Source: Pseudomonas bubulae
GTDB lineage: Bacteria; Pseudomonadota; Gammaproteobacteria; Pseudomonadales; Pseudomonadaceae
Direction of reading: 5' to 3'
NCBI RefSeq assembly: GCF_037023725.1
Contig: NZ_CP146078.1
Span: forward strand, 30,903 to 94,902
Length of the DNA stretch: 64,000 bases
How positions within the stretch are numbered: position 1 is the stretch's first letter; the number at the start of each line of letters is the position of its first letter. This document shows, piece by piece, positions 6,929 through 42,836 of this stretch. Made by a program: the position numbers and the translations under genes. The notes below the pieces were generated by a model. The model had not been told where the DNA came from and did not search any database. It saw nothing but the letters and a program-made list of their open reading frames with translations.

Positions 6929-9900
6929 CTAGCGGTTAATGACGCGACGGGTTTGCTGCTTGTCCTCGATGCCTTGGACGCGCTCCTGGATGGGCTGCTG
7001 TACCTTGACCTGGTGCTGCTCGATGACCTTGGCAACGGCGTTGTTCACTTGGCGTTCCAACCCCTCGCGCTCGAGTGAGCTTTTTGTTGCAAGGTCGTTG
7101 AAGTCAGTAAGCCGTTTCATTTTGTCCAGGGCTGCAAGCTGCGCATCGCTGAGCATTTCTGCCTTCAACGTCGCTGCTCGCTTAGATTGCGCAGGATCGC
7201 CGACCGAAGGGCCATCTTGGCTAATCAACGCCTTGAGTTCTCCAGCCGCTTGCGTGTGCTTGCGATAAGCCTGGGGGGTGATTGCCGGCAGCGTGTCGGG
7301 GTAAACAACCTCTCCAGGTGCGAAGGTAGGGAATATGGCTTTCCCTCCTACTGCCTTGGCTGCTTCAACTGCTTTCGTTCGGCCAGCATTAGTACCGTGG
7401 GTCATGACCTGGTGCCGATCGTCGTCGCCGGCGATGACGATCGGCTTATCAGGGAATTTCGCGTGCAATGCTTTCGCCACGGCCGGCAGATTGCCGGAGT
7501 CGAAAGCGGCCACGGTTGCATGGCCAAGACTGGATGCCAGTGTGCTTGCTGTGGCATAGCCTTCGGCAATGACGATAACCGGTGCCGCTGCAAGAGCATC
7601 AAGGCCACCCAACGGGTGAAAACATCCCTCCTTCCGACCATCCTTGGCAAAGCGCTTGGTGCCGTCTTTCTGGATGTATTGGGCTGTCCACTGCTTGCCG
7701 TTTTCGTCTATGGCCGGAATCACTGTTTCTTTGCCGGCTTTGTCGGTTAGGACGCCAGACAAGGGCTGGATTCCTTTTGCACTCATATACGGGGTCAGCT
7801 CGACCACGGGCACTAGGTTTTCCATGCTGCGAGTTACTTTCGCTGCCACGGCTTCATGCGTTTTGAGCAACGCGGCTTCCCGGGCCTGTAGCTTGGTTGC
7901 AGCCTCGGCCTGCAAGGTTGCTTTTTGCTCGTCGGTAAGGGAATAGCCTTTGCTTTTCCACTTCATATCGACGCCGGTTTTGTTGTTTATCAAAACGCCT
8001 GCGGGATGACCGTCTAAATGAGCAACATAGAAGCCGTCTGTTGCGCCTGTTCTGCCACCAACGACAGGAACACGGTGTTTTTTTCCATCCATGATGGGAT
8101 GGTTATCTTTCCCTCCTGGAATCAGGCCCACGGCCTCCATAGCGCCAATGAACTCTTCACGAACATCCAGTGCCGGCGACTGTTCGTTGCTGATATTTTC
8201 AGGCTTCCAACGGGCCAGGGCGGCTGTATCTCCATCTGGTCCGATGTACCAGGACTTCGCAGCCTTATCCCAAGCGGCTCCAGCGGCTTTGGCAGCCGAT
8301 CTTTCGCCGTAGGGAACCGCCAGGTACTCGCGTGCGGATTTAGGCGTGGATGCCACTTGCGGGGCCTCTGTACGCTCTTGCGCGGTTTCCGCGGCTTCCA
8401 CCTTCGGGGCCGGATTCAGCCAATGAGCGAACGCCTCTTTGTCGAGGTCGGCCGGGATGTACCAGGACTTTTCCTGCCGATCCCATTTGGCTCCCAGTTC
8501 CCTAACCTGCTCCTTCTCCTTGAATGGAACATGAAGGTAGGTTTTATCCGTGACCGGTGCCTGGTGGCTCTGCGCGGCCTGTTCTATTACGGCCTCGCTT
8601 TCTTTAGCCACCAAAACCGGTCTGTCGATGGCACTCGCCTCAACCTGGGCATGGCTATTGATCGCCGCCAGTCGGTCGGCCTGATCTTGTGCTTCTTCCT
8701 GGGTTCCGTAATCAGCCAACCAAACGGCCTTGCCTTCCTGGTCGCGGGCATACAGACCGTAAAACTCCGGCGCCTCATCGCCTTCAACCATGTGAACGCC
8801 TTCCTTGTCAGGATCTGTAGCAATACCCACGACCTGAGTTTCACCCGACCAATCACCCGGCAATTCGTAGCCCAACGCCTGCCCACTGGTGACGCCAAGC
8901 AGGCGTCCAAAACTTGCCTTTAATTCAGGCTTCGGCTCGCTGCGTACATTGCGCAGTGCGGTCGCAACCATCTGCTCGTTAGGGTTTAGCGGCATTGGCT
9001 CAGGCGCAACATTAACGCTTTCCTGCACCTGGTCACGCTTCGCTACATCAACACGGCGGCGCTGTTCATCGACAACGATTTCTTGCGCACGCTGGATTTG
9101 CTCGGCAACGGTGTCCACGTCATTAAACATCGCCTCCATCGCTTCTTCGTGCTGCGCCCAAAAAGCATTGTCGTTGGCCAGCGGGTGCATGGCGGTCAGC
9201 ACCTGGTCAAAGACTTGCAACTGATCGTCAGTCATTCGCCGTGCTACTTGGTCAAGGTCTGCGCGCTCGATGGCACGCAAAGCCCAATCCTCAGCTTGAA
9301 TGTTCGGGCGCTCTGGCTGTGCTGGGATCTGCATACTGGCCCCCTGCTCGTCCGGCTCATCCTGGAGCCTTTGAGGTTGTTGCGTTTGGCCCTGCGTCTG
9401 GATCTGCTGCTGCTCCAGGCCGAGAACAAAGCTCTGGATTTTTTCTGCGTCAGAGGCTGCGCGGAAAATCTCCAGCGGGTCGTTCTGCAGAGCCTTAATC
9501 CAGGACTGAACATAGGATGCGTGCTGGCCTGGGTCATGCCCAATGCCCAGCTCGTCACCGAGGATCATGCTTGCGATTTCAGCGCGCAATTCTTCTTTGG
9601 CGTACCCTTCCGACCCGAACGGATGTGACAAGTCCCGATCAAGGCGCGAGCCGTGGCCCGTCCAGTGGCCCAGCTCATGAAGCGCCGTTGCGTAGTAGTT
9701 ATCGGCGCTGGGGAATTGGGCCTTGTCTGGCAACTGAATGTTGTCAGTAGATGGCCTGTAATACGCCCTATCGCCACCGTGCCGAATATCAGCCCCGGAG
9801 GCTTGCAGGATCGTCTCTGCACGCTCCAGGGCATTCCACGTCTGGGCTGGTTTTTGATAAAGAGGCAAGCCGTCGATCTGCTCTGCGTTGAAGACGTTCG

Positions 9901-10909
9901 CCATGAACATTTTCGGCCGCTCCAGGCGCACGCGAACCTTGACCGGATCGCCCTTACCGTCCAGCACTGGTTTGTTGTTCTCGTCGCGCTTGGTTTGTTC
10001 TTCTTCAAACTTCCAATACTGGATGGATGTGCTTTTTTCGCCCTTGCGTACCTGGGCGCCGGCTGCTTTGGCCTGGTTGAACGTCAACCAGCGCTGATCG
10101 TCGCGGCCCTGAGAAAGCAAATGAATGGCGTTGATACCCTTGTACCGTTTTCCGGTAGTAGGGTTGAAGGGCATCATGCCGCCGCCGTCTCCGGCCTTCC
10201 AGGGCATCTGCCAAGGGGCCGTGCCTTGCTTTAGCTGCTCGATCAGCTTTTCGGCCACGACTTCGTGGAAAGGTTTTTTAGCGTCCATGGTCTGTTCCCG
10301 CTTGAACTGGGCATGATCTGATTCAGGGAAATTTTGTTGCGACCGGCTGCGGTCGCGCATCCCTTCGGCAACCATCGTGGTGACGTTGATTAGGTCGCGG
10401 ATCTGCATCGGGCGCGAGCGCTCGATGCAGGTTTCGCGAAAAGATCGGGTGCCCTCGATGACATTGCCGCGCGTCTGCGGCTCGATGGCTTCACACGCAA
10501 AGGCAAACACTTCCTCGGCTTTAAGCGAGTCGTTGGCCTCTGGATAGAGCTGAGCTACTTCGGCCCAAAGTTCGGACATTCCAGGTTCATTGCGGGCCTC
10601 AATAATCCCGTCTAGGACTGCTCGTTTTTCGGCGGGGTTGAAGGTGTTGATCCCAAAGTGTCCAAGGACTTCGTGCCTAAGAGTTTCTTTAAACTCGTCT
10701 TCGTTACGAAAATTGGAAGTGGCGAAGTCTGCTTGTCGGCTTCCGGGACGAAATGAACCGAGGATTCCTCCAACGGCTTCTCTTGTGGCTTGCGGTCCAT
10801 AAAGTTCCTCCTGGGTTGCTCTGAGCTTGTAGCTAATTGTGGACGCTACCGGGTAGGTAGCGCAGAACTCAATTACTAACGCCTTGGCATCATCGACGGA
10901 TAACGTCAT
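6929..10909 (-). CDS. traC: TraC-type primase fused to zincin and ArdC antirestriction modules
   Basis: 1326 residues; start ATG at 10909 with GGAGG 9 bp upstream. An N-terminal zincin-like segment has HEVLGHFG near residue 77. An ArdC-type module (ssDNA-binding N-domain about 205-330, metallopeptidase HELGHWTGH near 411) follows. A long linker leads to two DUF5710 repeats (about 786-830 and 858-898, each with a KSWYI core). A Toprim-like primase domain carries EGYATA near 1113 and an AGDDD acidic motif, the hallmark of RP4 TraC. RP4 TraC primes the incoming strand and is itself sent to the recipient. The fusion would let one protein prime and oppose restriction (inference). It occupies the traC position in Tra1. 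Confidence 0.88.
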   Translation of the reverse strand: MTLSVDDAKALVIEFCATYPVASTISYKLRATQEELYGPQATREAVGGILGSFRPGSRQADFATSNFRNEDEFKETLRHEVLGHFGINTFNPAEKRAVLDGIIEARNEPGMSELWAEVAQLYPEANDSLKAEEVFAFACEAIEPQTRGNVIEGTRSFRETCIERSRPMQIRDLINVTTMVAEGMRDRSRSQQNFPESDHAQFKREQTMDAKKPFHEVVAEKLIEQLKQGTAPWQMPWKAGDGGGMMPFNPTTGKRYKGINAIHLLSQGRDDQRWLTFNQAKAAGAQVRKGEKSTSIQYWKFEEEQTKRDENNKPVLDGKGDPVKVRVRLERPKMFMANVFNAEQIDGLPLYQKPAQTWNALERAETILQASGADIRHGGDRAYYRPSTDNIQLPDKAQFPSADNYYATALHELGHWTGHGSRLDRDLSHPFGSEGYAKEELRAEIASMILGDELGIGHDPGQHASYVQSWIKALQNDPLEIFRAASDAEKIQSFVLGLEQQQIQTQGQTQQPQRLQDEPDEQGASMQIPAQPERPNIQAEDWALRAIERADLDQVARRMTDDQLQVFDQVLTAMHPLANDNAFWAQHEEAMEAMFNDVDTVAEQIQRAQEIVVDEQRRRVDVAKRDQVQESVNVAPEPMPLNPNEQMVATALRNVRSEPKPELKASFGRLLGVTSGQALGYELPGDWSGETQVVGIATDPDKEGVHMVEGDEAPEFYGLYARDQEGKAVWLADYGTQEEAQDQADRLAAINSHAQVEASAIDRPVLVAKESEAVIEQAAQSHQAPVTDKTYLHVPFKEKEQVRELGAKWDRQEKSWYIPADLDKEAFAHWLNPAPKVEAAETAQERTEAPQVASTPKSAREYLAVPYGERSAAKAAGAAWDKAAKSWYIGPDGDTAALARWKPENISNEQSPALDVREEFIGAMEAVGLIPGGKDNHPIMDGKKHRVPVVGGRTGATDGFYVAHLDGHPAGVLINNKTGVDMKWKSKGYSLTDEQKATLQAEAATKLQAREAALLKTHEAVAAKVTRSMENLVPVVELTPYMSAKGIQPLSGVLTDKAGKETVIPAIDENGKQWTAQYIQKDGTKRFAKDGRKEGCFHPLGGLDALAAAPVIVIAEGYATASTLASSLGHATVAAFDSGNLPAVAKALHAKFPDKPIVIAGDDDRHQVMTHGTNAGRTKAVEAAKAVGGKAIFPTFAPGEVVYPDTLPAITPQAYRKHTQAAGELKALISQDGPSVGDPAQSKRAATLKAEMLSDAQLAALDKMKRLTDFNDLATKSSLEREGLERQVNNAVAKVIEQHQVKVQQPIQERVQGIEDKQQTRRVINR

Positions 10910-11085: not shown

Positions 11086-13173
11086 TCATGCTCCTTTCGC
11101 AACGGCGGGCTTGGCGATGTTTGCCTTGGCCAGATTCGGTTTGCCTTTGAAATCGGGATAGCTAGCGGTGCAAGTTGGGTACCCGCTGCACGCCCAAAAA
11201 TGAGTATTGGGCTTCTTGCCATCGCGGCGAATCAGGCCCTTCTGGCATTGGCTGCATTTGTAAATGGTGGAGACTTTCGGCGCCTGCTTGGCTCCGGCGA
11301 TTTTTACTGCACCCTGGTTGGCTTTAGCTACCTGGTCGCGGATAAGCGTTTCTTGCTTATCCATGAATGCCTGCATATCACCGCCGCCCTGCTCGATGGC
11401 GAGCAACATGCGCTCATACATCGCGGTCAGCACTGGGCTTTTCACGACTTCTGGCAAAGCGTCGATCATGCTGCGGCCCAGCTCGGTACTGACCAGGGCC
11501 TTGCCCTTGTCGGCCAGGAAGTTGCGGCGTTTCAATTCTTCGATGATTGAAGCGCGAGTAGCTGAGGTGCCGATTCCGTCACCGTCGCGGAGCATTTTCT
11601 TATGCTCTTTGTCGTCCACGTACTTGTGGATGTTCTCCATCGCCTGGGTCAAAGAGCCTTCGGTGAATCGGGCCGGTGGCTTGGTCTTGGAGTCGCGGCG
11701 CATAGCTTTGAGGCAAGCGGTCTGATCGCCAGTTTTCATACTCGGCAGGCTTTGCGACCCTGCGTCTTCGCCATCGCCTTCGCCTTCCTCGGAGTCGTTG
11801 GAAGCGTCAACGCCGAAAGCGTCTTTCCAGCCATTTTTTGTTACCACGTTACCGTGAGCAAAAAACTGTTCGCCGGAAACATCCAGCTCGACAGCGGTAT
11901 TCAGATACTCATGGACGGGGTAAAACTGAGCCAGGTAGTAACGAACGATGAGGTTGTGAATGGCTCGTTCTTCACTGCAGAGCTTCGACGCATCACCTGC
12001 CTGAACGGTTGGAATGATGCCGTGGTGCGCAGTGATTTTTGTGTCGTTCCAGGTCTTGGATTTGATTTTTGGGTTGGCCCCGTCAATCAGACTTTCCAGC
12101 TCTGGCACTACACCTTTGAGCGCTTCCAGGATGGCCGGCGCATCAGCAAATTGCGACTCGGGCAAATAGGCGCAATCAGTACGCGGGTAGGACGTGAGCT
12201 TGTGAGTTTCATACAGCGATTGGCAGGTGGCCAAAACTGTAGCGGCGCTGTAGCCAAAGTGTTTGGACGCCAGAACGGTAACGTCTGTAAGCGACAGTGA
12301 TTTTGGCTGTGCTTTCGTCTTCGGCTCTTGCTTGTAGCTTGTGATTTTGCCGGTCTGTCCGGACAACGATTTGACCAGGGCATCTGCCACGGCGGTATTG
12401 GTCAAGCGACCTTCTTCGTCCAAACCTTCCTGATCTTCGTGCGGCCTCCAGTCGGCCAGAAACTGACCGCCTTCGTGCTTGAAGGCTGCACGGATTCCGT
12501 GAAACGGAATCGCCTTGAAGCCTTCAATCAGACGGTCACGCATAACAACCAAATTCAAGGTCGGTGTTTGTACTCGACCGACTGTCAGCAGTGCCCGCGA
12601 GCCGCCTCGGATCGCGCGCAGCGTGAATGCACGACTAAGGTTCATCCCAATCAGCCAGTCAGCGCGCCCGCGCGCTTCCGCTGCATCTGCGAAGCCCGCA
12701 TATGCCTTGTTGTCTTTGAGGGAGTCCAGACCCCGGCGCACGGACACTGAATCAAGCGCACTGCACCAGTAACGCATTACTGGTTTGTTGTTGCCGAACA
12801 GCAGTCTTACCGGCTGATCGACAAGCAGTTGCCCTTCCCTGTCCGGGTCGCCGGCATGAACAATTTGATCGGCTTTCGCGTAGAGCTTGGCAACAATGTC
12901 CAATTGCTCCTGGGCGTCGTCGCGCGGGTTGTATTGCCATTCTTCCGGGATAATTGGCAGATCTTCGATACGCCAGATTTTTTTCCCGTTCTCCGCGCGC
13001 GGTGCGTCTGCGGCAGTGTAAGTATCAGGGTCGGCCTGCTCCAGCATGTGCCCGAAAAACCAGGTCACTATGTCAGAACCGCACTCGATGTAGCCCCTGC
13101 CCTTTCCGGTTTGGCCCAGCTCGGCGGCGATTGCTTTTGCTACGGATGGTTTCTCTGCGATGAATAGACGCAT
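11086..13173 (-). CDS. traE: DNA topoisomerase III, plasmid TraE type
   Basis: 695-residue type IA topoisomerase. The N-terminal Toprim domain starts [20 protein letters not shown] and has [12 protein letters not shown] (Mg-binding acidic triad). The active-site tyrosine lies in [15 protein letters not shown] near residue 325. The C-terminus has a zinc ribbon, [12 protein letters not shown]...CSGYPTC. It can decatenate or relax single-strand-containing DNA during transfer. The position between traF and traD/traC and the length match TraE of IncP-1. It is also called TopB in many annotations. Confidence 0.93.
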
Positions 13174-13177
13174 AGGA

Positions 13178-13729
13178 TCATTCTCCTTTCCAGGTCAGTA
13201 CAGGCCGAATCACCGACGTGACCTGGCTGCGAGTAATCGGGCCGAAATAACGGCCATCGAAGGATGTAGGGCTGCTATCTGACATAAGCAAAAGCTCTGA
13301 GGCGCCCAGCGTGTAACGCTCCGAGGAAAGCTGTGGCAGTGGACGGCCTACACCGTCTTCGGCTACAGGTTTGCTGTAGGGAAGGACTTCACCGTTGACC
13401 GTCACGCCCTGCGGTGTCACGGCGATGGTGTCGCCTTTAGCAGCTAAAATTTTCTTCATCAGGTGGCCGAAGTTTCCAGGGCAAAAACCGGCGTCGATGT
13501 ATCCCCGCTCTTTGGCGTCCACAAAGACTTTCCGCTCTGGCGGGCAGAACATCACATAAGCGCCTTTAGTGATTGGCGCGTCAGTAATCCAGTACAAGCC
13601 AAGCTCTAGGCTCTTACTCGTATTGAATCGACCACCTGCTGCGTAGATGCCGCCTGCGACTACCCCCACGCCAATACTTGCAGCGAGGGTGATACCTGCG
13701 ACGATCCGAAGGCCCTTGCGCATAGTCAT
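13178..13729 (-). CDS. traF: TraF conjugative signal peptidase / pilin cyclase
   Basis: 183 residues, S26 peptidase family, with one N-terminal membrane helix (IVAGITLAASIGVGVVAGGIY) and catalytic domain outside. The serine is S38 or S40 in TSKSLELGLYW, and the lysine is in KILAAKGDTIAV around residues 90-96; RP4 TraF uses Ser37/Lys89. It is expected to trim and circularise the TrbC pilin encoded at 35993, whose junction is conserved. The gene overlaps the traG stop by 4 bp. An internal ATG at codon 3 is an alternative start. Confidence 0.88.
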   Translation of the reverse strand: MTMRKGLRIVAGITLAASIGVGVVAGGIYAAGGRFNTSKSLELGLYWITDAPITKGAYVMFCPPERKVFVDAKERGYIDAGFCPGNFGHLMKKILAAKGDTIAVTPQGVTVNGEVLPYSKPVAEDGVGRPLPQLSSERYTLGASELLLMSDSSPTSFDGRYFGPITRSQVTSVIRPVLTWKGE

Positions 13730-15669
13730 ATGGCAATGGCCTCCTTAGCCGTTGGTTCGTTTTGCAGGCGCAGCCTGTCGGTGTCCTTTGGTTCCTCGAC
13801 GGCCGCGCGTGCGGTAAATGTCGGGTCTTGGAAGTACAGAGGCTGCTCGCCATAAATGGCCGGGAAGCCTGCGACGTAAACGACCATATCCCCCGCCTGG
13901 GTAATCTGGCCTTCCGAGTCTTTTTTAGGGCCAGGCATGCGCAAGCATTCATCATCGGTCAGCAATGGCCGCTGGACTTCTTGCATCGTCCTGGATACTT
14001 GTCCCATGAACACACCAGCGCGCTTGCCGCTGGTAGTGATTTGCTCCTTCACGACCGTAGTAACGCCGGTCAACTTGGAAAGGTGCTGTGCGGTTTCGAT
14101 CCGGTTAGGTGGATAGGCATTCTGTACGTGGCAGTTAGAGGTAATCGTTTCGTCAGGGCCGTAGCCTGTTTCGCGGCTCTTGAGCTGATTAATATCCTGG
14201 CAAATCAGATAGAACTTGATCCCGTAGCCAGCAACGAATGCCAGCGACTCTTGCAGGATTTCCAGCTTCCCGAGGCTTGGGAGTTCGTCAATCATGCCAA
14301 GCAGGCGATGTTTGTAATTCTTCTTGGAACGAACGTAGGAAAGGGCCTGCTGTTTGAACCCGAGTCGATCTAGGAAGCGAAGCCAGGCCGGCATTTCTGC
14401 CTTGACGCGCTCAAACTCCATTTTGTCTGCGAGCAAGCGAACAATCATGTTGACCTGGACGCGCACCAGTGGCCGCAACCGAGCCTTGTCGTTTGGTTGG
14501 GTAACGATGTACAGGCTTACCGGGCTGTCATGGTTCATCAGGTCTTTGATGCGCCACTGCGACTTGCTGACGTTACGCGCTACAACTGGATCACGATAAA
14601 GGGCCAGATACGATTTCGCGGTAGACAGAACTGAGCCGGCTTCTTCTTCCGGCCTATCCATCATGTCGCGTCCAGCCGATCCAATGACCGGATGATTCTC
14701 GCCATTGACGTGACTGTACTGCGTCATTTCCATCCATAGCTCGCCAACGTCCCTGTTGGGATCGGCAAGCATGGTATCGACGTAAGGAAGCGTAGCCGGA
14801 GTGCCTTCGTGCTTTGCCTTGTACAGAACGTGCAGAATCATGCCGACCAGGAGGGCTTGCGACGTTTTCTGCCAGTGGGATTCAAGGCCCTTGCCGTCTG
14901 GGTCGACAATCAGGGTCGCCAGGTTTTGAACGTCGCCAACCTCGTACTCGGTTTCAAGGCGAATTTCATCAAGCGGGTTCCAGTATGCGCAACCTGTCAG
15001 GCTGGCCGGCTCAAAGCGAATAACCTTGTTACCGGCGTGTTCCTTTCGCCAGCCGGCCGTCATGGCCCATAGCTCGCCTTTTAGGTCAGTGACAACGCAA
15101 CTGTGGGGCCATGAAAGGAGTGTCGGAACAACCAGGCCGACACCTTTACCCGAACGAGTCGGGGCATAGCATAGGACGTGTTCAGGCCCGTTGTGACGCA
15201 GGTACTGGAGCTTGCCGGACTTGTCACGCCAGGCTCCAACATAGACGCCGCCATCGCGGCCATCGTTGCCCAATAAACTAGCGTCCTCAATGTCCTTTTT
15301 GTTAGCCCAGCGAGCCGAACCGTGTAGGTGTTCGTTAGCTTTGGATGAGTTTGAGGCGATCACCTTTGCGGCTGCGGTGACGATCAACCCCCCGGCCGCG
15401 ACCAGCGTGCCGACACTGCCGGCTGCGGTCAGCGCATCGGGATAGATGCCGTTCCACTTGTGCCACCAATCAAAAATCGCCCAAGGCGCATACAGGTGGT
15501 TGTAGTTCGCACCAAGAACAGCTTGGTACTCAAATTTCCATGCAAAAAATTGGGTAGCGGCCGCCGATCCGGCGACAAAACTTGCAAGGCCAAGGGCGGG
15601 TACAACCTTACTTTTCCCTGGCTTCTTGCCTCTGGTTTGCGGCCCAACCGCATTATTGGCTTTACTCAT
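13726..15669 (-). CDS. traG: TraG type IV coupling protein (VirD4 family)
   Basis: 647-residue inner-membrane ATPase that links the relaxosome to the secretion channel. N-terminal hydrophobic segments (LGLASFVAGSAAATQFFAW and a second near 60-85) are followed by Walker A APTRSGKGVG near residue 167 and Walker B LLGMIDELPSLGK near 456. Strong ribosome site AAGGAGCAG precedes ATG 15669, which overlaps the traI stop by 4 bp. Order traI-traG-traF is that of IncP Tra1. Confidence 0.94.
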   Translation of the reverse strand: MSKANNAVGPQTRGKKPGKSKVVPALGLASFVAGSAAATQFFAWKFEYQAVLGANYNHLYAPWAIFDWWHKWNGIYPDALTAAGSVGTLVAAGGLIVTAAAKVIASNSSKANEHLHGSARWANKKDIEDASLLGNDGRDGGVYVGAWRDKSGKLQYLRHNGPEHVLCYAPTRSGKGVGLVVPTLLSWPHSCVVTDLKGELWAMTAGWRKEHAGNKVIRFEPASLTGCAYWNPLDEIRLETEYEVGDVQNLATLIVDPDGKGLESHWQKTSQALLVGMILHVLYKAKHEGTPATLPYVDTMLADPNRDVGELWMEMTQYSHVNGENHPVIGSAGRDMMDRPEEEAGSVLSTAKSYLALYRDPVVARNVSKSQWRIKDLMNHDSPVSLYIVTQPNDKARLRPLVRVQVNMIVRLLADKMEFERVKAEMPAWLRFLDRLGFKQQALSYVRSKKNYKHRLLGMIDELPSLGKLEILQESLAFVAGYGIKFYLICQDINQLKSRETGYGPDETITSNCHVQNAYPPNRIETAQHLSKLTGVTTVVKEQITTSGKRAGVFMGQVSRTMQEVQRPLLTDDECLRMPGPKKDSEGQITQAGDMVVYVAGFPAIYGEQPLYFQDPTFTARAAVEEPKDTDRLRLQNEPTAKEAIAI

Positions 15670-18182
15670 CTGCTCCTTCCTTTTTTCGTAACTGCGCCCT
15701 TGTCATTCAAGGTGACTGCATCACCCAACGAATAACGCTTGATACGGCGGGCGGTGGCCGCATCGACTGGCAACACAATGATTTCTTCGTCGCGCTTCAA
15801 AAGAGCCAGGGTTTCCCCTTCTATTTGCCGGGTTCCGGCAAACAAAGCGGCGCCTTTATCGTCCTGAGTATAACGCCTATGATTCGGTATATCGAATCCT
15901 TTAGCCAGTTTTGAGGTGCGTTCAGCAATGTATTTATCGGCTGCCGACTTCGGTTGAGTCGGCATGGTTTTCTCAGGCACAGGCTTTGGCATCGGTGGCC
16001 GTGGCATTCCTGGAACACTGATAGGGCCATCTACGGGCAGCTCGCGAATCTTGGACATAGGCTGCAACCGTCTTCGCAACATGGCCGGTGGCTTGCCACC
16101 GACCGGGACAACGCCAGGCTTGTTGGTTGCACCAGGGCCACGTGGTTTTTTCCCTACCCTTCTTCCTGCCCCAGAAACACCCCGTCGCATGCCTCCAGCA
16201 TGTTCGGCTCCTTCGTGCTGCACGTTATGAGGAACATCACGCGGCAATAACACTTCACTTCTTTCGGGGAGGCGAACCACACCGAGTTGGGACAGCTCTC
16301 GCAGACCGTTCCCGGACAAGGCCGGCGGCTTGGGTCCAACCCCTCCAAGACCGGACTTATTTGTTTGTCCTGGTCCTCGTCGAATTCCGGTTCTGGCGTT
16401 TCTTCCGCCACGCTTTGTTCTAGATCCGCCATCACTGCTGCTAGCTGATCTTCTTCGCTCATCGGCACTTCGGTTTGGTCTACTTGATCGGTCATTGCCG
16501 CTCTCCTTACTTGTTAAACGCACCAGCTCTTGGCGCCGCGCTTCCAGCGCAGCGTCATTGAAGGTGATGTTGAGTTTTGAAGTCGCCGCGACACGGGCAA
16601 TCTTCTCTTTGAATTCGTCACTGCCGTTGACGGCGATGTTCTGGCCGTAACGGTGAACAGCCATCCGCAATACGGCCTCCAGCCCAGCGCGATTAGAGCC
16701 GCGCGCCACTTGGAGCGCTTCGCCATCGTCGCGAATGGCAGAGCCAGCAAAGCGGTGAATTACCGTGCCGTCTTTGGTAACGCTGTCCACCTTTAAAGGC
16801 ATAGGGCTTAAGCGCTTTGCAGGGCCACTACCGGCAACGGTGTCGCCAGCGCGGGGCTTGGCAGTCTTGCGCGTGCGAAGTGCCTTCAGCGCCTGCTGAT
16901 CGCCTTCCGTGGCCTTTGCCTGGAGCCAGTCAGCCCATGCTCTTTTTGAATACTCGCCGTGGATAGATTGCCGCTCGGCCAGGTACTGGGTATTGGCTTT
17001 CTGGATCTCGGCATGAAGGGCTTTGCTGACCAGGGCGTATAGGAGTTTTTTGTTGACGCCGGGGCCGCTGAGCATTTTTATCGCTGCGCGCTTGAGTCGG
17101 CCCGTGCGCTTGGCGGCCTCCACAGCCTTGTCTTTGCTATTCTTTGCGGCCCCCCACGCTGTGGCGCGAGCATGAACCTTGATGCCCTGTTCGGCCTTGT
17201 AGCGGGCATACAGCTCGGTTGTCGCCGCACTCCCAGCACTATGAATCGGCCGACCTTCGTAACGCTTGCCTGGCTCGCCCTCGATTGCCCCCAGTTGTGA
17301 CAGAGTGCTAAGCCGACCTTTACGCATGGGAGGTGGCTTACCACCTACCGCCACAACAGGGGGAGCTTTACGATTATGCAAACCCGGGCCGCGCTTTGCT
17401 GTCGCCTTCTTTTTGGCGTCCCCTTCAAATGCCCCTAGACGCTTTTCAAGGTTCGGCTTTGACAGATTTCGGGAAACGGAGCTGGCCTTTACCCCTACTC
17501 CGCGGCCATCTGTGATTACCAGACCGTTGCCGCGCTCTTGCAGCTCCAGACCGTTCTTGCGTATGACTTCATGCAAGTCATTCCAGGTATGGGCCTGAGT
17601 CAGTTGGTCTGCGCATTCGCGCTTGATCCAGCCCAACAAACTTTCGATACCGGCGTGCTGCTCCATATCGTCTGCACGGTTTTCACTGCCACGCTTTCGG
17701 CCAGTGTGATTCGTGACTTGCAACCCATGTTCACGCTCAAGAATCGCCGCCATATCACCCATAGTCTGATAGGCACGATACGGCTCGTGGATGGTGTGAC
17801 GCTCGGGGTGAATCTTGTTGATTGCGACGTGAATATGCAGGTTGTCAGTGTCATGGTGAACCGCGCTAACGCGCTGATGCCCTCCAAAGCCAATGGCGGC
17901 ACATATGCGATTTTCCACATCACGCAAAACATCTGCGGATGGCTGCTCACCAGGCGCAAACGAGATAAGCAGGTGGTAGGTCTTATCACCCTCCGCGCGC
18001 TGGTTTCTTTGTTGAACATGCAGGGCCTCAGTAATGGCCCAGTCCAAGGACTCGCTTTGGAAGTTCGTCAAACGAACCTCGCCAACCCGCTCCTGCTTTT
18101 CTTGCGAATTGGTGATGTATTTGGCTAGGCCGGCAAAGCTGCTTAGCTTCGCTTCCTTCATCGGAACATGACGCGCGATCAC
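15666..18182 (-). CDS. traI: TraI relaxase (MOBP, IncP type)
   Basis: 838 residues, starting GTG at 18182; the N-terminus MIARHVPMKEAK aligns with RK2 TraI and fixes this start although no clear ribosome site is seen. The nicking tyrosine should be Y22 (AGLAKYITN). Motif III is HHDTDNLHIHVAINKIHP near residue 110. The C-terminus ends in an LPD-like segment (ALLKRDEEIIVLPVDAATARR). It is longer than RK2 TraI (about 730 residues), partly from three copies of a Gly-Lys-Pro-Pro linker motif. It cleaves oriT between 18723 and 18724 and leads the strand into the channel. A second gene, traH, is overprinted at 16154-16495. Confidence 0.94.
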   Translation of the reverse strand: MIARHVPMKEAKLSSFAGLAKYITNSQEKQERVGEVRLTNFQSESLDWAITEALHVQQRNQRAEGDKTYHLLISFAPGEQPSADVLRDVENRICAAIGFGGHQRVSAVHHDTDNLHIHVAINKIHPERHTIHEPYRAYQTMGDMAAILEREHGLQVTNHTGRKRGSENRADDMEQHAGIESLLGWIKRECADQLTQAHTWNDLHEVIRKNGLELQERGNGLVITDGRGVGVKASSVSRNLSKPNLEKRLGAFEGDAKKKATAKRGPGLHNRKAPPVVAVGGKPPPMRKGRLSTLSQLGAIEGEPGKRYEGRPIHSAGSAATTELYARYKAEQGIKVHARATAWGAAKNSKDKAVEAAKRTGRLKRAAIKMLSGPGVNKKLLYALVSKALHAEIQKANTQYLAERQSIHGEYSKRAWADWLQAKATEGDQQALKALRTRKTAKPRAGDTVAGSGPAKRLSPMPLKVDSVTKDGTVIHRFAGSAIRDDGEALQVARGSNRAGLEAVLRMAVHRYGQNIAVNGSDEFKEKIARVAATSKLNITFNDAALEARRQELVRLTSKESGNDRSSRPNRSADERRRSASSSDGGSRTKRGGRNARTGIRRGPGQTNKSGLGGVGPKPPALSGNGLRELSQLGVVRLPERSEVLLPRDVPHNVQHEGAEHAGGMRRGVSGAGRRVGKKPRGPGATNKPGVVPVGGKPPAMLRRRLQPMSKIRELPVDGPISVPGMPRPPMPKPVPEKTMPTQPKSAADKYIAERTSKLAKGFDIPNHRRYTQDDKGAALFAGTRQIEGETLALLKRDEEIIVLPVDAATARRIKRYSLGDAVTLNDKGAVTKKGRSR
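16154..16495 (-). CDS. traH: TraH-like protein, overprinted inside traI
   Basis: 113-residue frame lying wholly inside traI on the same strand in another frame. Its ATG at 16495 has an excellent AAGGAG at 8-bp spacing, which the traI frame has no need for. The product starts MTDQVDQTEVPMSEEDQ, is acidic in the first half and has a Cys-rich second half (CPGTVCESCPNSVWF, VKCYCRVM). RK2 traH is likewise nested in traI. No clear transfer function was established for RK2 TraH, to my knowledge. The TraI segment covered is a non-enzymatic linker that can tolerate overprinting. Confidence 0.7.
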   Translation of the reverse strand: MTDQVDQTEVPMSEEDQLAAVMADLEQSVAEETPEPEFDEDQDKQISPVLEGLDPSRRPCPGTVCESCPNSVWFASPKEVKCYCRVMFLITCSTKEPNMLEACDGVFLGQEEG

Positions 18183-35018: not shown

Positions 35019-35981
35019 ATGAGTGAACATAACGGCGACTTGGAAACGATCAAAAAGCGCGTTACTGAGCGCCTACGCCGCGACTTGGGGCCTTTGGTTG
35101 AGGGCGCGCTTAACGACCCAAAAACTACCGACATCCTGCTGAATGCAGATGGGCAGCTCTGGCTGAAACGCTTGGGTGAGCCAAGTCGTGTTATTGGGGA
35201 GTTGGAGGCATGGCGCGCAACTTCTGCTATGAAAACGCTCGCCGGTTTGCTCGGTAAAACCATCGGGGCAAAAGAGCCAATCCTTGACGGCGAATTGCCT
35301 TTCGGCAACGAGCGTTTTGCCGGCCAGCTTCCGCCAGTAGTTTCGTCTCCGTGCTTTGCGATCCGTAAACCCGCCATCAAGGTCTTTCCGCTCGACAGCT
35401 ATGTCGAACAGGAAATCATGACCCAAGCGCAATGCGACGCCATCAAGAAGGCTGTACGCGAACACAAGAACATTCTTGTGATCGGCGGAACCGGCTCGGG
35501 CAAGACAACGCTCATCAACGCCGTCATTCAAGAAATGGTCGATAACGATCCGAATGAACGTGTGTTCATCATTGAAGACACGGGCGAAATCCAGTGTTCC
35601 GCCGTCAACTGTGTTCAGTACCACACCACGCTTGAAGTCAGCATGACTGACTTGCTCAAAACGACCCTTCGGATGCTGCCTGACCGAATCATCGTCGGTG
35701 AAGTCCGTGGTGCAGAGGCGCTCGACCTCTTGGACTCCTGGAACACCGGCCATGACGGCGGCGCGGGCACGCTCCACGCAAACACTGCCGAATCTGCCTT
35801 GCAACGCCTCAAGTCCCTTATCACCCGTAACAAGCTCGCTCCAACAGATATTGAACCGCTGATTGCTGAGGCGGTTCACGTAATCGTGCAAATCAACCGG
35901 AAATCAGAAGTCCGCCGAGTAGAAGCGATTCTCGAAATCGTCGGATATGAAAACGGCAACTACATCACCAACACCCTCTAG
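35019..35981 (+). CDS. trbB: TrbB secretion ATPase (VirB11 family)
   Basis: 320 residues, the RK2 length. ATG 35019 has GGAG at 7-bp spacing. Walker A GGTGSGKTT at 156-164, the Asp box IIEDTGEIQ, LRMLPDRIIVGEVRGAEALD (Walker B region) and a His box GGAGTLHANTA. A hexameric cytoplasmic traffic ATPase for pilus assembly and DNA transfer. First gene of the trbB-trbP operon. Confidence 0.95.
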   Translation: MSEHNGDLETIKKRVTERLRRDLGPLVEGALNDPKTTDILLNADGQLWLKRLGEPSRVIGELEAWRATSAMKTLAGLLGKTIGAKEPILDGELPFGNERFAGQLPPVVSSPCFAIRKPAIKVFPLDSYVEQEIMTQAQCDAIKKAVREHKNILVIGGTGSGKTTLINAVIQEMVDNDPNERVFIIEDTGEIQCSAVNCVQYHTTLEVSMTDLLKTTLRMLPDRIIVGEVRGAEALDLLDSWNTGHDGGAGTLHANTAESALQRLKSLITRNKLAPTDIEPLIAEAVHVIVQINRKSEVRRVEAILEIVGYENGNYITNTL

Positions 35982-35992
35982 GAGTAACACCC

Positions 35993-36427
35993 ATGCAAAA
36001 CAACACTTCCCGCGTTAACAGCAAGGCACTTTTCGCCGCAGGTGCAGCGCTGATGATGCTTCTTAGCGCTCATCCCGCATTCGCGTCCAGCACCGCTGGG
36101 GGCGGCCTTCCTTTCGATGACTGGTTTACAACCATCCGCTCGTCCATCACTGGACCATTCGCCTTTACCGCGTCGATTGTCGGCTTGGTTGGTGCCGGTG
36201 CCACGCTGATTTTCGGCGGCGATATGAACGGCTTCCTGCGCACCTTGATTTTCATCGTCCTGGTCTTGTGCTTCATCGTCGCGGCACAAAACACCTTGTC
36301 GGCCATCACCGGCCAAGGCGCTGAAATCACCGCTGCGCAGGATGTGGCCGCGAAGTCTGCCGACTGGATCACCAGCAAGGTCGAGGCCATTCGCTCGGCT
36401 ACTGCTCGCTTGGTAGTGGGAGCGTAA
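35993..36427 (+). CDS. trbC: TrbC prepilin, precursor of a cyclic pilin
   Basis: 144 residues (RK2 145). Long signal sequence ending AHPAFA before SSTAGG, two membrane helices (FAFTASIVGLVGAGATLIFG, LRTLIFIVLVLCFIVAAQNT), then ITGQG-AEITAAQ. RP4 pilin is joined head to tail at a Gly followed by AEIA, so the G-AEI junction predicts that TraF makes a cyclic pilin here too. The C-terminal ~35 residues would be removed. Confidence 0.92.
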   Translation: MQNNTSRVNSKALFAAGAALMMLLSAHPAFASSTAGGGLPFDDWFTTIRSSITGPFAFTASIVGLVGAGATLIFGGDMNGFLRTLIFIVLVLCFIVAAQNTLSAITGQGAEITAAQDVAAKSADWITSKVEAIRSATARLVVGA

Positions 36428-36432
36428 TTCCT

Positions 36433-36744
36433 ATGGCACTACGCAAGATCCCTATTCGTCGGGCCGGCAATCGCCATAACCTTTTCATGGGTGGGGATCG
36501 TGAAATGGTTATGTTCAGCGGTCTGCTCGCCGCCATCCTTATCTTTGCTGCGCAAGATTGGTTGGCCTTCCTCCTGGGCGTGGGCATGTGGTTCGCCTCG
36601 CTCTGGATGCTGCGCAAGATGGGCAAATCTGACCCTCTTATGCGCTTTGTCTATCTGCGCAACCGCCGATACAAACCCTTTTACCCGCCGCGTGCCACTC
36701 CCTTCCGCGAAAACGGCACCTCTCAAGGGAAGCAATACAAATGA
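36433..36744 (+). CDS. trbD: TrbD inner-membrane protein (VirB3 family)
   Basis: 103 residues, same size as RK2 TrbD. ALRKIPIRRAGNRHNLFMGG and a hydrophobic hairpin (VMFSGLLAAILIFAAQDWLA, FLLGVGMWFASLWML) followed by a basic tail. It partners TrbE; its stop overlaps the trbE start by 4 bp. Confidence 0.9.
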   Translation: MALRKIPIRRAGNRHNLFMGGDREMVMFSGLLAAILIFAAQDWLAFLLGVGMWFASLWMLRKMGKSDPLMRFVYLRNRRYKPFYPPRATPFRENGTSQGKQYK

Positions 36745-39293
36745 TTGAATCACTGCTCATCGCAATTGCGGTCGTGGGCGTCCTGTTGGTGCTGTTTTTG
36801 CTCTCGCAGGTACGTAAGGTCAATGAAGACCTTCGACTTAAAAAACATCAATCCACCGAAGCCGGCCTTGCCGATCTTCTCAATTACGCGGCTGTCGTCG
36901 ATGACGGCGTGATTGTTGGCAAGAACGGCTCTTTCATGGCGGCGTGGCTGTACAAAGGATCTGACAACGCCAGTGCAACCGATGTAGAGCGGGAAATGAA
37001 CTCGTTCCGCATCAACCAGGCGCTGGCCAACATGGGCAGCGGCTGGATGGTTCACGTCGATGCAGTCCGTAGGCCGGCTCCGAACTACAGTCACCCCAGC
37101 CAATCGAATTTCCCTGATCCGGTATCGGCAGCAATTGACGAAGAACGTCGCCGTACCTTTGAGGGGCTGGGCAATCTGTACGAAGGCTTCTTTATCATCA
37201 CGGTAACGTGGTTCCCGCCAATGCTTGCAGAGCGCAAGTTTGTCGAGCTGATGTTCCATGACGATTCAGACAAGCCAAACAAAAAAGCACGCACGCATCA
37301 CTTGATCGACTTCTTCAAAAAAGAGGTCAAAAACATCGAATCTCGCATGTCCTCCGCTGTATCCATGGAGCGCCTGCGCGGTCAAAAAATCATGAATGAG
37401 GACGGGTCAACCGTAACTCATGATGAGTTCCTGCAATGGCTCCAGTTCTGCGTTACGGGTATCAATCATGCCGTGATGCTGCCGACCAATCCGATCTACA
37501 TCGACAACCTGATTGGGGGCAAGGAGCTGTATACCGGCGTAACGCCAAAGTTAGGCCGCAAGTTCATCCAGGTAGTCGCCATTGAGGGTTTCCCTCTGGA
37601 GTCCTCGCCTGGAATCCTGACGCGCCTTGCTGAGCTGCCTGTTGAATACCGCTGGTCAAACCGTTTCATCTTCATGGATCACCATGAGGCAGTTTCGCAC
37701 CTGGAGAAGTTTCGCAAGAAATGGAAGCAGAAGATCCGGGGCTTCTTTGACCAGGTATTCAACACCAACGGCGGCACCGTCGATGAGGATGCCGTTTCTA
37801 TGGTGGCCGATGCTGCATCGGCTATTGCTGAAACCAATAGCGGCATGGTTGCGCAAGGCTTCTATACCAGTGTCGTAGTGCTGATGGACGAAAGTCGGTC
37901 AGTGGTGGAAACGGCAGCGCTCCAGCTTGAAAAAGCTATCAACGGGATGGCGTTCACCGCTCGCGTCGAAACCATCAACACCATGGATGCCTTCATGGGT
38001 TCACTGCCAGGTCACGGCGTAGAGAACGTGCGCCGGCCTCTCATCAATACGATGAACCTGGCCGACTTGATCCCGACAAGCACCATCTGGACTGGCGAGA
38101 ACTTCGCACCTAATCCACTGATGCCGCCTAACTCGCCGCCGCTGATGCACGGGCTTACAAGTGGTAACTCGCCTTTCCGAGTCAACATCGATGTGCGCGA
38201 CTTGGGTCACGCCATCATGTTTGGCCCGACTCGGGCAGGTAAGTCTACGCACCTGGCAATTCTCGCCATGCAATGGCGCCGTTACTCCAACGCCAGGCTA
38301 TTTACCTTCGACAAGGGTATGTCGATGTATCCGAGCTGCAAGGCAGCCGGGGGTTCTCACTACGTTGTGGCAGGTGCTGGCGAAAAGCTCGCTTTCGCTC
38401 CCTTGTCCAACCTGGTGACTCGCTCGCGCCGTGCCTGGGCAATGGGCTGGGTTGACGACCTGCTGGCATTGAACGACATCAAAACCACGCCAGAACAGCG
38501 CAACAAAATCGCCGAAACCATTCTTGAAATGGGCAAGGTCGAGGAAGAAACAGGGCGTCCGGGAACGCTGTCTGAATTCACCGCAATGGTTCAGGACAAT
38601 GACATTCGGGCGGCACTCAAGGACTACACCGTTGATGGTCTGATGGGTCACTTGCTCGACGCAGAAGTGGATCAACTCTCTATTTCCGACTTCATCACTT
38701 TTGAAATTGAACACCTGATGGACTTGGGGGATCGCTATGCGCTGCCTGTCTTGCTTTACCTGTTTATGCGAATTCAAGAAGCGCTGGATGGCCGGCCAAC
38801 CCTGATTATTCTCGATGAGGCTTGGCTAATGCTGGGTCACGATGTGTTCCGCGAGAAAATCCGCGAGTGGCTTAAAACCCTGGCAAAGAAAAACTGCCGC
38901 GTACTGATGGCAACTCAGAACCTTTCTGACGCCTCTCAATCAGGGATTCTGGACGTCATTGTTGAGTCCACTGCCACCAAAATCTACCTGCCGAATATGT
39001 ATGCGCGTGATGAAGCAGCGACCGCGCTTTACCTCCGCATGGGCCTCAACTTGCGCCAGATTGAAATCATCGCTACTGCGCAGCAAAAGCGCGATTACTA
39101 CCTGGTATCTGAGAAAGGCCGCCGCCTATACAGCCTTGCACTAGGCCCGCTGGCTCTCTCCTTCGTCGGTGCGACCGGCCCAGACGACATAGCAATCATC
39201 AAGAAGTTAGAGGAACAGCACGGCGATGCGTGGGTGCATGTGTGGCTCCGCGACCGTGGCTTGAGCCTTGATAACTACAGGAGTGCAGCATGA
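36741..39293 (+). CDS. trbE: TrbE secretion ATPase (VirB4 family)
   Basis: 850 residues (RK2 852). An N-terminal membrane helix (LLIAIAVVGVLLVLFLLSQV), Walker A GPTRAGKSTH near 494-503, Walker B PTLIILDEAWLMLG near 685-698, and RVLMATQNLSDASQSG (sensor region). The largest channel ATPase; energises pilin and substrate movement. Overlaps trbD and trbF by 4 bp each. Confidence 0.95.
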   Translation: MIESLLIAIAVVGVLLVLFLLSQVRKVNEDLRLKKHQSTEAGLADLLNYAAVVDDGVIVGKNGSFMAAWLYKGSDNASATDVEREMNSFRINQALANMGSGWMVHVDAVRRPAPNYSHPSQSNFPDPVSAAIDEERRRTFEGLGNLYEGFFIITVTWFPPMLAERKFVELMFHDDSDKPNKKARTHHLIDFFKKEVKNIESRMSSAVSMERLRGQKIMNEDGSTVTHDEFLQWLQFCVTGINHAVMLPTNPIYIDNLIGGKELYTGVTPKLGRKFIQVVAIEGFPLESSPGILTRLAELPVEYRWSNRFIFMDHHEAVSHLEKFRKKWKQKIRGFFDQVFNTNGGTVDEDAVSMVADAASAIAETNSGMVAQGFYTSVVVLMDESRSVVETAALQLEKAINGMAFTARVETINTMDAFMGSLPGHGVENVRRPLINTMNLADLIPTSTIWTGENFAPNPLMPPNSPPLMHGLTSGNSPFRVNIDVRDLGHAIMFGPTRAGKSTHLAILAMQWRRYSNARLFTFDKGMSMYPSCKAAGGSHYVVAGAGEKLAFAPLSNLVTRSRRAWAMGWVDDLLALNDIKTTPEQRNKIAETILEMGKVEEETGRPGTLSEFTAMVQDNDIRAALKDYTVDGLMGHLLDAEVDQLSISDFITFEIEHLMDLGDRYALPVLLYLFMRIQEALDGRPTLIILDEAWLMLGHDVFREKIREWLKTLAKKNCRVLMATQNLSDASQSGILDVIVESTATKIYLPNMYARDEAATALYLRMGLNLRQIEIIATAQQKRDYYLVSEKGRRLYSLALGPLALSFVGATGPDDIAIIKKLEEQHGDAWVHVWLRDRGLSLDNYRSAA

Positions 39294-40021
39294 GCATTTT
39301 CAATCGCCGCAAAGACGCGGAAACAGAAGTAGCCGGCGCAACTTTAGCCGCTAAAGAGAAAGTCAATAATCCGTATCTCAATGCTCGCCGTTCGTGGAAT
39401 GGTCATGTGATGGGAGTTATGTCTTCTCTCCAGGTATGGCAGACCGTGGGGATCGTTTCCTTGCTAATTGTCATGGGGGCAGTAGGCGGCATTGCTCACA
39501 TTGGCGCGCAATCAAAGATCATTCCTATGGTGTTCCAACAAGATGCCTCGGCCAACACGGTTTCCGTGACTTTGCTGGATCGGGTGCCTGATGCAGTTCT
39601 GACCGACTATCAAGCAGCGGTGACAAACTTCATCAGCAACACACGGTTGGTAACTCCAGATGTAAGCCTCCAGCGAAAAGCCGTGCTGGCCTCTTATGCG
39701 TACCTTGCCCCGCAAGATCCGGCAACGATGAAGGCCAATGAATTCCTCAATGGCTCCCCTGAGCGGAACCCGTTCAAGCGCGCGGAAAACGAAACCGTGT
39801 CGGTTGAGATTCGATCTGCTCTGCCACAAACCAAAGACACCTGGCAGGTGGATTGGACTGAGACAGTTCGCAGCCGTGACGGCTCGCTCAAAGGCAAGCC
39901 GTACAACATGCGAGCGCTCATCAACGTCTATCAAAACAAAGATTTGTCAGTAGACAAAAACACTTTTGTGAACGGGCACTTCATCTTCATTCGCGACTTT
40001 AACTGGTCGAAACAACTTTAA
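39290..40021 (+). CDS. trbF: TrbF channel protein (VirB8 family)
   Basis: 243 residues. Short cytoplasmic head, one helix (VGIVSLLIVMGAVGGIAHI), and a periplasmic VirB8 domain (NPFKRAENETVSVEIRSALP, TWQVDWTETVRSRDG). A KorB-type site TTTAGCCGCTAAA at 39343-39355 is embedded in codons encoding LAAK in the cytoplasmic head. Confidence 0.92.
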   Translation: MSIFNRRKDAETEVAGATLAAKEKVNNPYLNARRSWNGHVMGVMSSLQVWQTVGIVSLLIVMGAVGGIAHIGAQSKIIPMVFQQDASANTVSVTLLDRVPDAVLTDYQAAVTNFISNTRLVTPDVSLQRKAVLASYAYLAPQDPATMKANEFLNGSPERNPFKRAENETVSVEIRSALPQTKDTWQVDWTETVRSRDGSLKGKPYNMRALINVYQNKDLSVDKNTFVNGHFIFIRDFNWSKQL

Positions 40022-40041
40022 TCCTGGGGCGGACACTCCAT

Positions 40042-40938
40042 ATGAAAAAGACACTGATTTCCTCGTTAATTGCCGGCGTTCTTTTGCCAGGTTTTGTACA
40101 AGCCGCCGACAGCCAAGCGGATATGGCAAACAAGTATTTTGCCCCGGACACTGTGAAGCTGACCCCGCAGGAGCAAAAAGCTATCGGGATCGGCAAAAAA
40201 TGGCAGACCGGCCAAGCGACTAGCAACGCGACACCAGGCGGCGACGGCGCCATTACCTTCCTATATGGCAGTGGGCAAACCCAAGTGGTCTGCGCTGTCC
40301 TCCAGGTCTGCGATATCTCCTTGCAGCCTGGTGAGCAGTTCAACACGCTGAACGGTGGCGATCCTCGTTTCACCGTTGAGCCTGGCATCAGCGGCTCCGG
40401 TGCAGACCAAACCGTTCACTTGATTTTGAAGCCGCTCGACGTGGGCCTGGATACCGCGCTGGTCGTGATGACCGACCGCCGTACTTACCACTTCCGTCTG
40501 CGTTCAACTCGCAATGAAAGCATGCCTTACGCGCGCTTCATGTATCCCGAAGATGCTGCTGCCAAGTGGGCATCGATTCGGAATGCCGAGGCTAAAGACC
40601 GTCACGACAACACTATTCCTCAAACCCGGGAATACCTGGGCAACTTGGACTTTAACTACTCCATCGACGGCAAGGCGCGCTGGAAGCCGGTGCGTGTCTA
40701 CAACGACGGCACGAAAACCATCATTGAAATGCCCGATGGCATGCGTCAAAGCGAGTCTCCAACCCTGCTGGTAGTACGTCGCGACGGCGGCATCTTCCGA
40801 GATGCTGAAACGCAAATGGTCAACTACCGCGTCCAGGGCAATCGCTATGTGGTGGACACGATTTTCGACAAGGCAATTCTCGTTGCCGGCGTCGGGTCGA
40901 GCCAGGACAAAATCACCATTGAGCGGGAGGCCAAGTGA
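40042..40938 (+). CDS. trbG: TrbG channel protein (VirB9 family)
   Basis: 298 residues (RK2 297). Signal peptide MKKTLISSLIAGVLLPGFVQA, then VirB9-type beta domains: FLYGSGQTQVVCAVLQVCDI, QPGEQFNTLNGGDPRF, RTYHFRLRST, and the C-terminal RPTLLVVRRDGGIF-like segment. Part of the outer-membrane core with TrbH and TrbI. Confidence 0.93.
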   Translation: MKKTLISSLIAGVLLPGFVQAADSQADMANKYFAPDTVKLTPQEQKAIGIGKKWQTGQATSNATPGGDGAITFLYGSGQTQVVCAVLQVCDISLQPGEQFNTLNGGDPRFTVEPGISGSGADQTVHLILKPLDVGLDTALVVMTDRRTYHFRLRSTRNESMPYARFMYPEDAAAKWASIRNAEAKDRHDNTIPQTREYLGNLDFNYSIDGKARWKPVRVYNDGTKTIIEMPDGMRQSESPTLLVVRRDGGIFRDAETQMVNYRVQGNRYVVDTIFDKAILVAGVGSSQDKITIEREAK

Positions 40939-41399
40939 TGCGCAAAGTTCTCCTAATCACGGCACTGATCGCCGGCTTGAGTGGGTGCGCAACAAATTCC
41001 CCATACGGGAATTATTCGGCAGCCCCGGCCGCGCATGACAAAACCATGGCGAACGACACCGTTGCGCACCTGGTCACGATGTATCCGCCTGCGCGGACTC
41101 GTTTGAACATCATGCAGCCCACCGAAGATGCCTACGGAACGGCCTTGATAGCGCTTCTGCGCGCCTGCGGCTACTCCGTGAACGAGTACGCGCCGGAGGC
41201 AGCCAAGAAGGCGCAGCCGGCCACTCAGGCGGCATTCGCTCCCGGCGTAGACCTGCGCTATGTCGTTGACTCGCTCGCACCTGCCGCAGACCTGTACCGG
41301 GTCACGGTGGTGGTGGGTAGTCAACCGATCAGCCGAGCCTACATTCCACAAAAAAACGGGACTGTCGCAGCGGCGGGTTCCTGGGCGCGTAAGGAGTAA
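40938..41399 (+). CDS. trbH: TrbH lipoprotein (VirB7-like role)
   Basis: 153 residues. MRKVLLITALIAGLSGCATN is a lipoprotein signal with lipobox LSGC. The body (HLVTMYPPARTRLNIMQPTE, YGTALIALLRACGYSVNEY) matches TrbH. The ATG overlaps the trbG stop (TGATG); a GTG one codon earlier is an alternative. It anchors the core complex in the outer membrane. Confidence 0.88.
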   Translation: MRKVLLITALIAGLSGCATNSPYGNYSAAPAAHDKTMANDTVAHLVTMYPPARTRLNIMQPTEDAYGTALIALLRACGYSVNEYAPEAAKKAQPATQAAFAPGVDLRYVVDSLAPAADLYRVTVVVGSQPISRAYIPQKNGTVAAAGSWARKE

Positions 41400-41404
41400 T
41401 TGCC

Positions 41405-42820: not shown

Positions 42821-42836
42821 CCGCAAGGAGCAAGTT

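Follow-up and report, generated by a model that had tools for sequence, protein, structure and literature searches.

A predicted TraC1 primase of Pseudomonas bubulae with an apparently exchangeable zincin-like header

A 64,000-nucleotide stretch of DNA from Pseudomonas bubulae (contig NZ_CP146078.1, positions 30,903 to 94,902; here called the window) contains one uninterrupted reading frame of 1,326 codons on its minus strand. Judged by its sequence, the frame encodes the R751-type TraC1 DNA primase of a conjugative, IncP-1-like plasmid, with a zincin-like module (residues 1 to 205, here called the header) at its N terminus. The best explanation, which we consider probable, is that this primase is delivered together with the transferred strand (T-strand) and bears an exchangeable header acting as a protease after entry. 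The domains, the fold class, the orthology, and a reversal of distances between header and primase were computed and form the basis of this explanation; by analogy with RP4, the protein is probably translocated and probably primes in the recipient, and proteolysis would be the most likely activity of the header. The protein itself is ordinary for IncP plasmids: an ArdC part is usual among them, and the header has been explored less. Added here are the structure model of the header, its varied carriers, and its apparent exchange between plasmids.

Domain architecture and the N-terminal header

An earlier note, made from the sequence alone, had described this frame as a conjugative primase fused to two metallopeptidase-like antirestriction modules. 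The frame proved to be a real open reading frame (ORF), and domain searches supported the fusion of a TraC-type primase to an ArdC module: an ArdC-N domain and a zincin with an HExxH motif, in the order expected of ArdC, are followed by the two proposed DUF5710 repeats and, at the C terminus, by a DnaG-like primase core that contains Toprim and EGYATA. As in the TraC1 proteins of IncP plasmids, the ArdC-like (DUF1738) region lies on the same chain as the primase and N-terminal to it, and, as in polyvalent proteins, several unrelated domains are joined in one mobile-element protein. The first DUF5710 copy was modeled as a strand-helix-strand-strand-helix unit; no role was found under the name DUF5710 in the open-access literature. 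The same modules in the same order, including a HEVLGH header, occur in R751 TraC1 (NC_001735.4; 1,448 amino acids), with identities to the window protein of 46% in the header, 75% in ArdC, and 68% in the primase. Unlike R751 TraC1, the P. bubulae protein is 122 amino acids shorter, chiefly between ArdC and DUF5710, and has a header closer to that of plasmid pHelB. The ArdC part also matches the ArdC protein of R388/pSa (PDB 6i89 and 6sna; E = 6e-46 over residues 212 to 493), likewise an ArdC-N domain with an HExxH zincin, but the R388 protein is a free protein of 297 amino acids, whereas in P. bubulae ArdC is one module of a primase. A newly acquired ArdC fusion was ruled out, because the fusion is common to R751 and to header-less IncP TraC proteins; in IncP TraC1, the module is long-standing and fixed.

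Of the two HExxH motifs counted in the earlier note, only HELGH at residue 411 is present in the ORF; the other, HEVLGH, is an HExxxH motif. The description of the N-terminal region as a zincin held for its fold, since structure prediction revealed a second zincin-like domain there, modeled with confidence (predicted local distance difference test score, pLDDT, 92.7). The segment searches suggested in the note recovered ArdC-N, DUF5710, and Toprim but gave no Pfam-A family for the header. Among 182 listed protein-search homologues, many of which are near-copies of the window protein, 177 had a module longer than 150 amino acids, and HExxGH was retained in all 177 (112 distinct sequences). The AEE triplet lies 46 residues from the second histidine in 171 of the 177 modules and sits on a helix (residues 127 to 139) in the header model; in the non-redundant modules, E132 was conserved in 64 of 66 and E133 in 65 of 66. 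The border between header and cargo is marked by a conserved QQxFP motif (Q191, 44/55; F194, 45/53; P195, 47/52).

With its HExxxH motif and a glutamate on a conserved later helix, the header resembles the HEXXXH-bearing set of polyvalent metallopeptidases (MPTases) described in Iyer et al. 2017 (PMC5512222). The likeness, which extends to host proteins of conjugative elements and phages and to the multidomain setting, is to the description of that group given there and not to its list of members. In dipeptidyl peptidase III (M49), the zinc site combines HEXXGH with a downstream EE motif (PMC5667867). The header likewise has HEXXGH with EE further along; it differs in the second motif, having EEVFAF in place of EEXR(K)AE(D). 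M49 peptidases were absent among the matches listed in the header fold searches (Foldseek, VIA), which still allows kinship, and a Foldseek search of the header against PDB gave no match under an E value of 0.001. The viral fold library gave matches to phage domains labeled “large polyvalent protein,” with Escherichia phage PTXU04 first (E = 1.6e-6), and PHROG 616 matched the header module of one of the collected loci (E = 5.9e-20). An origin of the header and the ArdC zincin by internal duplication found no support: the hhalign probability of 0.6% fell within the 0.05 to 7.1% given by 20 column shuffles, leaving no detectable sequence kinship between the two.

Exchange and distribution of the header

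The TraC1 protein of PB5 (1,061 amino acids) and the TraC protein of pHNEP124 (1,319 amino acids) have no header and begin 1 to 3 residues from the equivalent of Met208; the header is therefore an extension added at the N terminus of an RP4-type TraC1. PB5 TraC1, which we take to be a stand-in for the RP4 type from its IncP typing and its length, starts one residue before the equivalent of that methionine and aligns with the window protein from there to the C terminus, through ArdC, the DUF5710 pair, and the primase. Just past the junction, a KKPF motif was found in 27 of the 28 locus ORFs that combine a header with ArdC, and an in-frame ATG occurs a few codons ahead of KKPF in all 29 rows compared (27 loci, the window, and R751, many of them nearly identical). 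The Shine-Dalgarno-like stretch at this ATG is good in three loci and weak in the window, where the ATG was not among the internal starts carrying the Shine-Dalgarno strings searched. A header-less product could possibly arise by internal initiation at the junction. In PB5, a short product, TraC2, is annotated with an internal start after the ArdC part; near the corresponding position of the window ORF, no internal start with the searched Shine-Dalgarno strings was found, and the nearest candidate is TTG 544.

The relationships of the two ends of the protein are reversed. The window header is 69 to 72% identical to that of the P. syringae plasmid pHelB and 46% identical to that of R751, whereas the window primase is 33 to 36% identical to that of pHelB and 68% identical to that of R751. 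In column bootstraps, pHelB was a closer match to the window than R751 was in 2,000 of 2,000 replicates for the header (69% versus 46%) and in 0 of 2,000 for the primase (33% versus 68%). Eight P. syringae-type rows, which lack ArdC, gave header identities to the window of 56 to 76% and primase identities of 35 to 38%; in five of them the header identity was 72 to 76%, two of these five having the same header sequence. Past about residue 205 to 210, the identity to pHelB collapses and that to R751 rises to 15/15. In the header tree, the relatives of the window and the P. syringae type were intermixed with weak support, and approximately unbiased tests of four groupings rejected none (P = 0.07 to 0.29), so that the case for exchange is carried by the distance reversal and the sharp border. 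On this sequence evidence, headers have been swapped between plasmids, and the header appears to be a separate, exchangeable unit. It occurs on plasmids of both the MPF_T (R751) and MPF_I (pHelB) types.

Searches with residues 1 to 205 returned 286 proteins, 120 of which were listed; the header of a zeta-toxin protein as the query returned 51, and a stand-alone protein of 232 amino acids returned 11. Header loci came from genome contigs (58) and viral contigs (27), and 6 of these 85, whose match had no open frame containing the motif, were set aside; for loci, counts of HExxxH are biased, since the motif served both to find them and to set their frames. The collection then comprised 266 proteins, namely 79 locus ORFs, 182 hits from the protein searches, and 5 window or annotated records; they are partly redundant and related by selection. 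In 226 of them the best header module lies at the N terminus, in 33 it is internal, and in 7 it lies at the C terminus. When architectures were assigned by our own searches with a few segments, 112 proteins were header-ArdC-DUF5710 (one or two copies)-Toprim, 40 were header-(DUF5710)-Toprim-LPD7, 31 were header-zeta toxin, 7 were header-ArdC, 5 were header-Toprim, 3 were header-LPD7, and 1 was header-BID; for 50, the segments searched recognized no partner. More than one header match was found in 17 proteins, with two separate HExxxH motifs in 16 of them; apparent triple matches were recounted as two modules and a fragment. Headers were present on 238 plasmid records, 217 of which were typed conjugative, and were uncommon in genomes (8 of 369 sampled in the class and 16 of 398 in the phylum, the window's own genome being in both). 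Most header sites in the genome samples, 7 of 9 for the class and 13 of 19 for the phylum, belonged to frames with 1,700 residues or more, and related headers also lie inside giant phage proteins. In the open-access literature, subscription journals being outside the search, no paper was found on one header common to TraC, zeta-toxin, and BID proteins, and a search combining HEXXXH, conjugative, and metallopeptidase led only to Iyer et al. 2017.

The 16 proteins with two separate HExxxH modules are large and of phage-type size (2,222 to 4,153 residues); they are L044 (motifs at 1131 and 1386), L072, L089, and 13 others. On Pseudomonas plasmids, zeta-toxin-family proteins with an HExxGH header are encoded at L003 (8968-10503) and L120 (4980-6494), some kilobases from TrbA, transglycosylase, and topoisomerase genes; the stretches shown around them contained no gene annotated as an antitoxin, and these proteins could be delivered effectors. 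P0171 (491 amino acids), a lone metagenomic protein from a 1.9-kb contig, has an HExxGH header and, joined to it, a BID domain of the Bartonella type (PF17841; E = 1.2e-8). The stand-alone headers of about 230 residues, such as a Teredinibacter protein of 232 amino acids, are convenient proteins for assays and crystallography.

Possible roles of the header and the ArdC module

From the literature on RP4, the donor would probably produce TraC1 and export it by type IV secretion, either with the T-strand or alongside it, and the C-terminal DnaG/T7-type Toprim core of TraC1 would prime the complementary strand in the recipient. The transfer of RP4 TraC into the recipient, which the earlier note had mentioned, is stated in PMC8744291 and PMC7213743. 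Both also state that RP4 TraC1 starts with an ArdC-like region, and PMC8744291 adds that the cotransferred protein primes the T-strand and that its transfer needs its N-terminal part. The ArdC-N part would grip single-stranded DNA, and the header, with its putative HExxGH...AEE metal site, would most likely be a protease after delivery, cutting either a recipient protein or the carrier itself. An active post-delivery protease is favored because the header occurs in stand-alone copies, in two copies per protein, and in phages, and because its motif is strictly conserved. The protein thus raises the question of what the metallopeptidase domains of injected mobile-element proteins cut. One header recurs on proteins as different as a primase and a toxin, in phage proteins, and by itself, and its target may therefore be a shared one. 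A broader proposal, which we regard as tentative and less likely than not, is that mobile elements share the HExxGH header as an all-purpose “entry protease,” attached to the protein that each of them injects, be it a primase, ArdC, a zeta toxin, a BID protein, or a giant phage protein. Acting in trans, it would target a host factor whose disarming is needed by phages as well as by conjugating plasmids. Plasmids whose secretion systems are unrelated (MPF_T and MPF_I) would exchange it as a cassette, the downstream edge of which coincides with the original traC start.

Two other roles for the header were weighed against this protease. Self-processing, put forward for polyvalent MPTases in PMC5512222, would mean that after entry the carrier is cut by its header, by its ArdC zincin, or by both, which would free the primase; we hold it possible, if on the unlikely side. 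The conserved QQxFP at the header/cargo border would suit such a cut, and phage P1 DdrB, which has a C-terminal MPTase, is described there as processed, but QQxFP or a near form is also present in cargo-less stand-alone proteins (4/4), and the in-frame ATG at the junction (29/29) could yield a header-less protein through translation. The header might instead be a signal that the coupling protein reads for docking or transport, with a metal site that is structural only. Its usual N-terminal place (226/266), the share of conjugative plasmids among its records (217/238), and its union in P0171 with a BID domain, the core of a type IV secretion signal in Bartonella (PMC5675462), are what such a signal would show. 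The HExxGH motif retained in 177/177 modules and the service of one header on both MPF_T and MPF_I plasmids tell against it. We consider a pure transport signal improbable and the least likely role, because RP4 TraC1, with its ArdC-like part at the N terminus, moves without a header (PMC8744291) and because the header also lies inside giant phage proteins, where no type IV secretion system is expected.

The earlier note had also proposed that a delivered ArdC protects the entering DNA from restriction before any plasmid gene is expressed, ahead of a separately made KlcA. The fusion and the shielding idea have been in print since 2000, when Belogurov et al., as recounted in PMC7213743 and PMC8744291, proposed that ArdC rides the T-strand and shields it, and the claim of a new antirestriction device falls away. 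The ArdC module is intact, with HELGH present, and RP4 TraC1 is cotransferred and needs its N-terminal part for this (PMC8744291). PMC7213743 calls TraC1 antirestriction “a reasonable hypothesis” and remarks on the redundancy with KlcA. According to PMC11602122, deleting klcA or klcB left the restriction of pB10 unaffected, so that another protecting factor is possible on such plasmids (RP4 and pB10 are listed there with klcA only). Instant protection is nevertheless doubtful. According to PMC7213743, R388 ArdC counters type I restriction when expressed in the recipient, its overexpression in the donor did not complement, an E229A metal-ligand mutant was as active as the wild type, and type I enzymes are argued to attack at the double-stranded, that is, late, stage. 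In addition, the plasmid, which has an IncP-like transfer region, carries a separate Antirestrict-family (KlcA-like) gene of its own, and RP4 klcA was reported in PMC7314908 to be induced about 120-fold in transconjugants by reverse transcription-quantitative PCR. Because of the R388 results, instant protection by delivered ArdC is possible but not favored, the protease motif is not expected to matter, and a test of HExxH mutants in the ArdC half, which the note had suggested, would probably be negative. This TraC1 may have some antirestriction effect.

Plasmid setting and neighboring genes

The 1,326-amino-acid protein is 100% identical to one on NZ_CP146075.1 (94,902 bp, circular) of P. bubulae S2-2023-2, which came from a spinach leaf wash. 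The traC-like gene is preceded by traJ, traI, traG, traF, and a topoisomerase III gene, the traI/traG/traF/topoisomerase order being that of R751 and PB5. This block, the Antirestrict-family gene, the annotated kle and partition genes, and the trb run together indicate an IncP-1-like backbone; the “mobilizable” type assigned by MOB-suite seems to overlook the trb genes. Feature positions are collected in Table 1.

Table 1. Features of the traC-like ORF and of its plasmid surroundings (window coordinates)
Feature	Residues	Position	Strand	Basis or remark
traC-like primase ORF	1326 aa	6929..10909	-	annotated WP_271351101.1, “zincin-like metallopeptidase domain-containing protein”
Header, HExxxH zincin-like module	1-205	10295..10909	-	no Pfam-A match
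HEVLGH motif (HExxxH)	79-84	10658..10675	-	motif scan
AEE, candidate third metal ligand (glutamate helix)	131-133	10511..10519	-	module alignment
QQNFP, conserved motif closing header	191-195	10325..10339	-	module alignment
In-frame ATG, header/ArdC junction	Met208	10286..10288	-	1-3 residues from start of header-less IncP TraC
ArdC-N single-stranded-DNA-binding domain	215-315	9965..10267	-	E = 2.4e-32
MPTase-PolyVal zincin of ArdC module	362-486	9452..9826	-	domain match
HELGH in ArdC-module zincin	411-415	9665-9679	-	motif scan
DUF5710 copy 1	789-831	8417..8545	-	domain match, structure model
DUF5710 copy 2	about 861-904	8198..8329	-	domain match, structure model
DnaG/T7-gp4-type primase core (Toprim, EGYATA)	1015-1199	7313..7867	-	domain match, structure model
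Topoisomerase III		11086-13173	-	IncP-type DNA-processing block (11086..18182)
traF		13178-13729	-	IncP-type DNA-processing block
traG coupling protein		13726-15669	-	IncP-type DNA-processing block
traI relaxase		15666-18182	-	IncP-type DNA-processing block
Antirestrict-family (KlcA-like) gene	144 aa	26851..27285	-	PF03230, E = 1.5e-24
trb/type IV secretion genes trbB to trbL, TrbM, transglycosylase, TraX		35019..47069	+	annotation; Pfam for three

The gene directly downstream of traC (6432-6920, minus strand) encodes a protein of 147 to 162 amino acids made of repeats like EPLTFTHNGEPATINLERF, with weak family matches. Its DNA contains a 150-nucleotide direct repeat (6511-6660 and 6703-6852; 89%) and a 48-nucleotide repeat (6472-6519 and 6850-6897; 85%); the latter holds a ribosome-binding-site-like stretch and an ATG, so that the translation start of this gene looks duplicated. 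Outside the window, VirB11 and TrbI/VirB10-like genes lie beside a transglycosylase gene at 37544-39478 of NZ_CP146075.1, adjoining a dioxygenase/ABC-transporter block, and could represent a piece of a second secretion system. Beyond the trb genes, at about 58065-59078 of the window, is a class 1 integron integrase gene, intI1, with qacG2 and tni genes.

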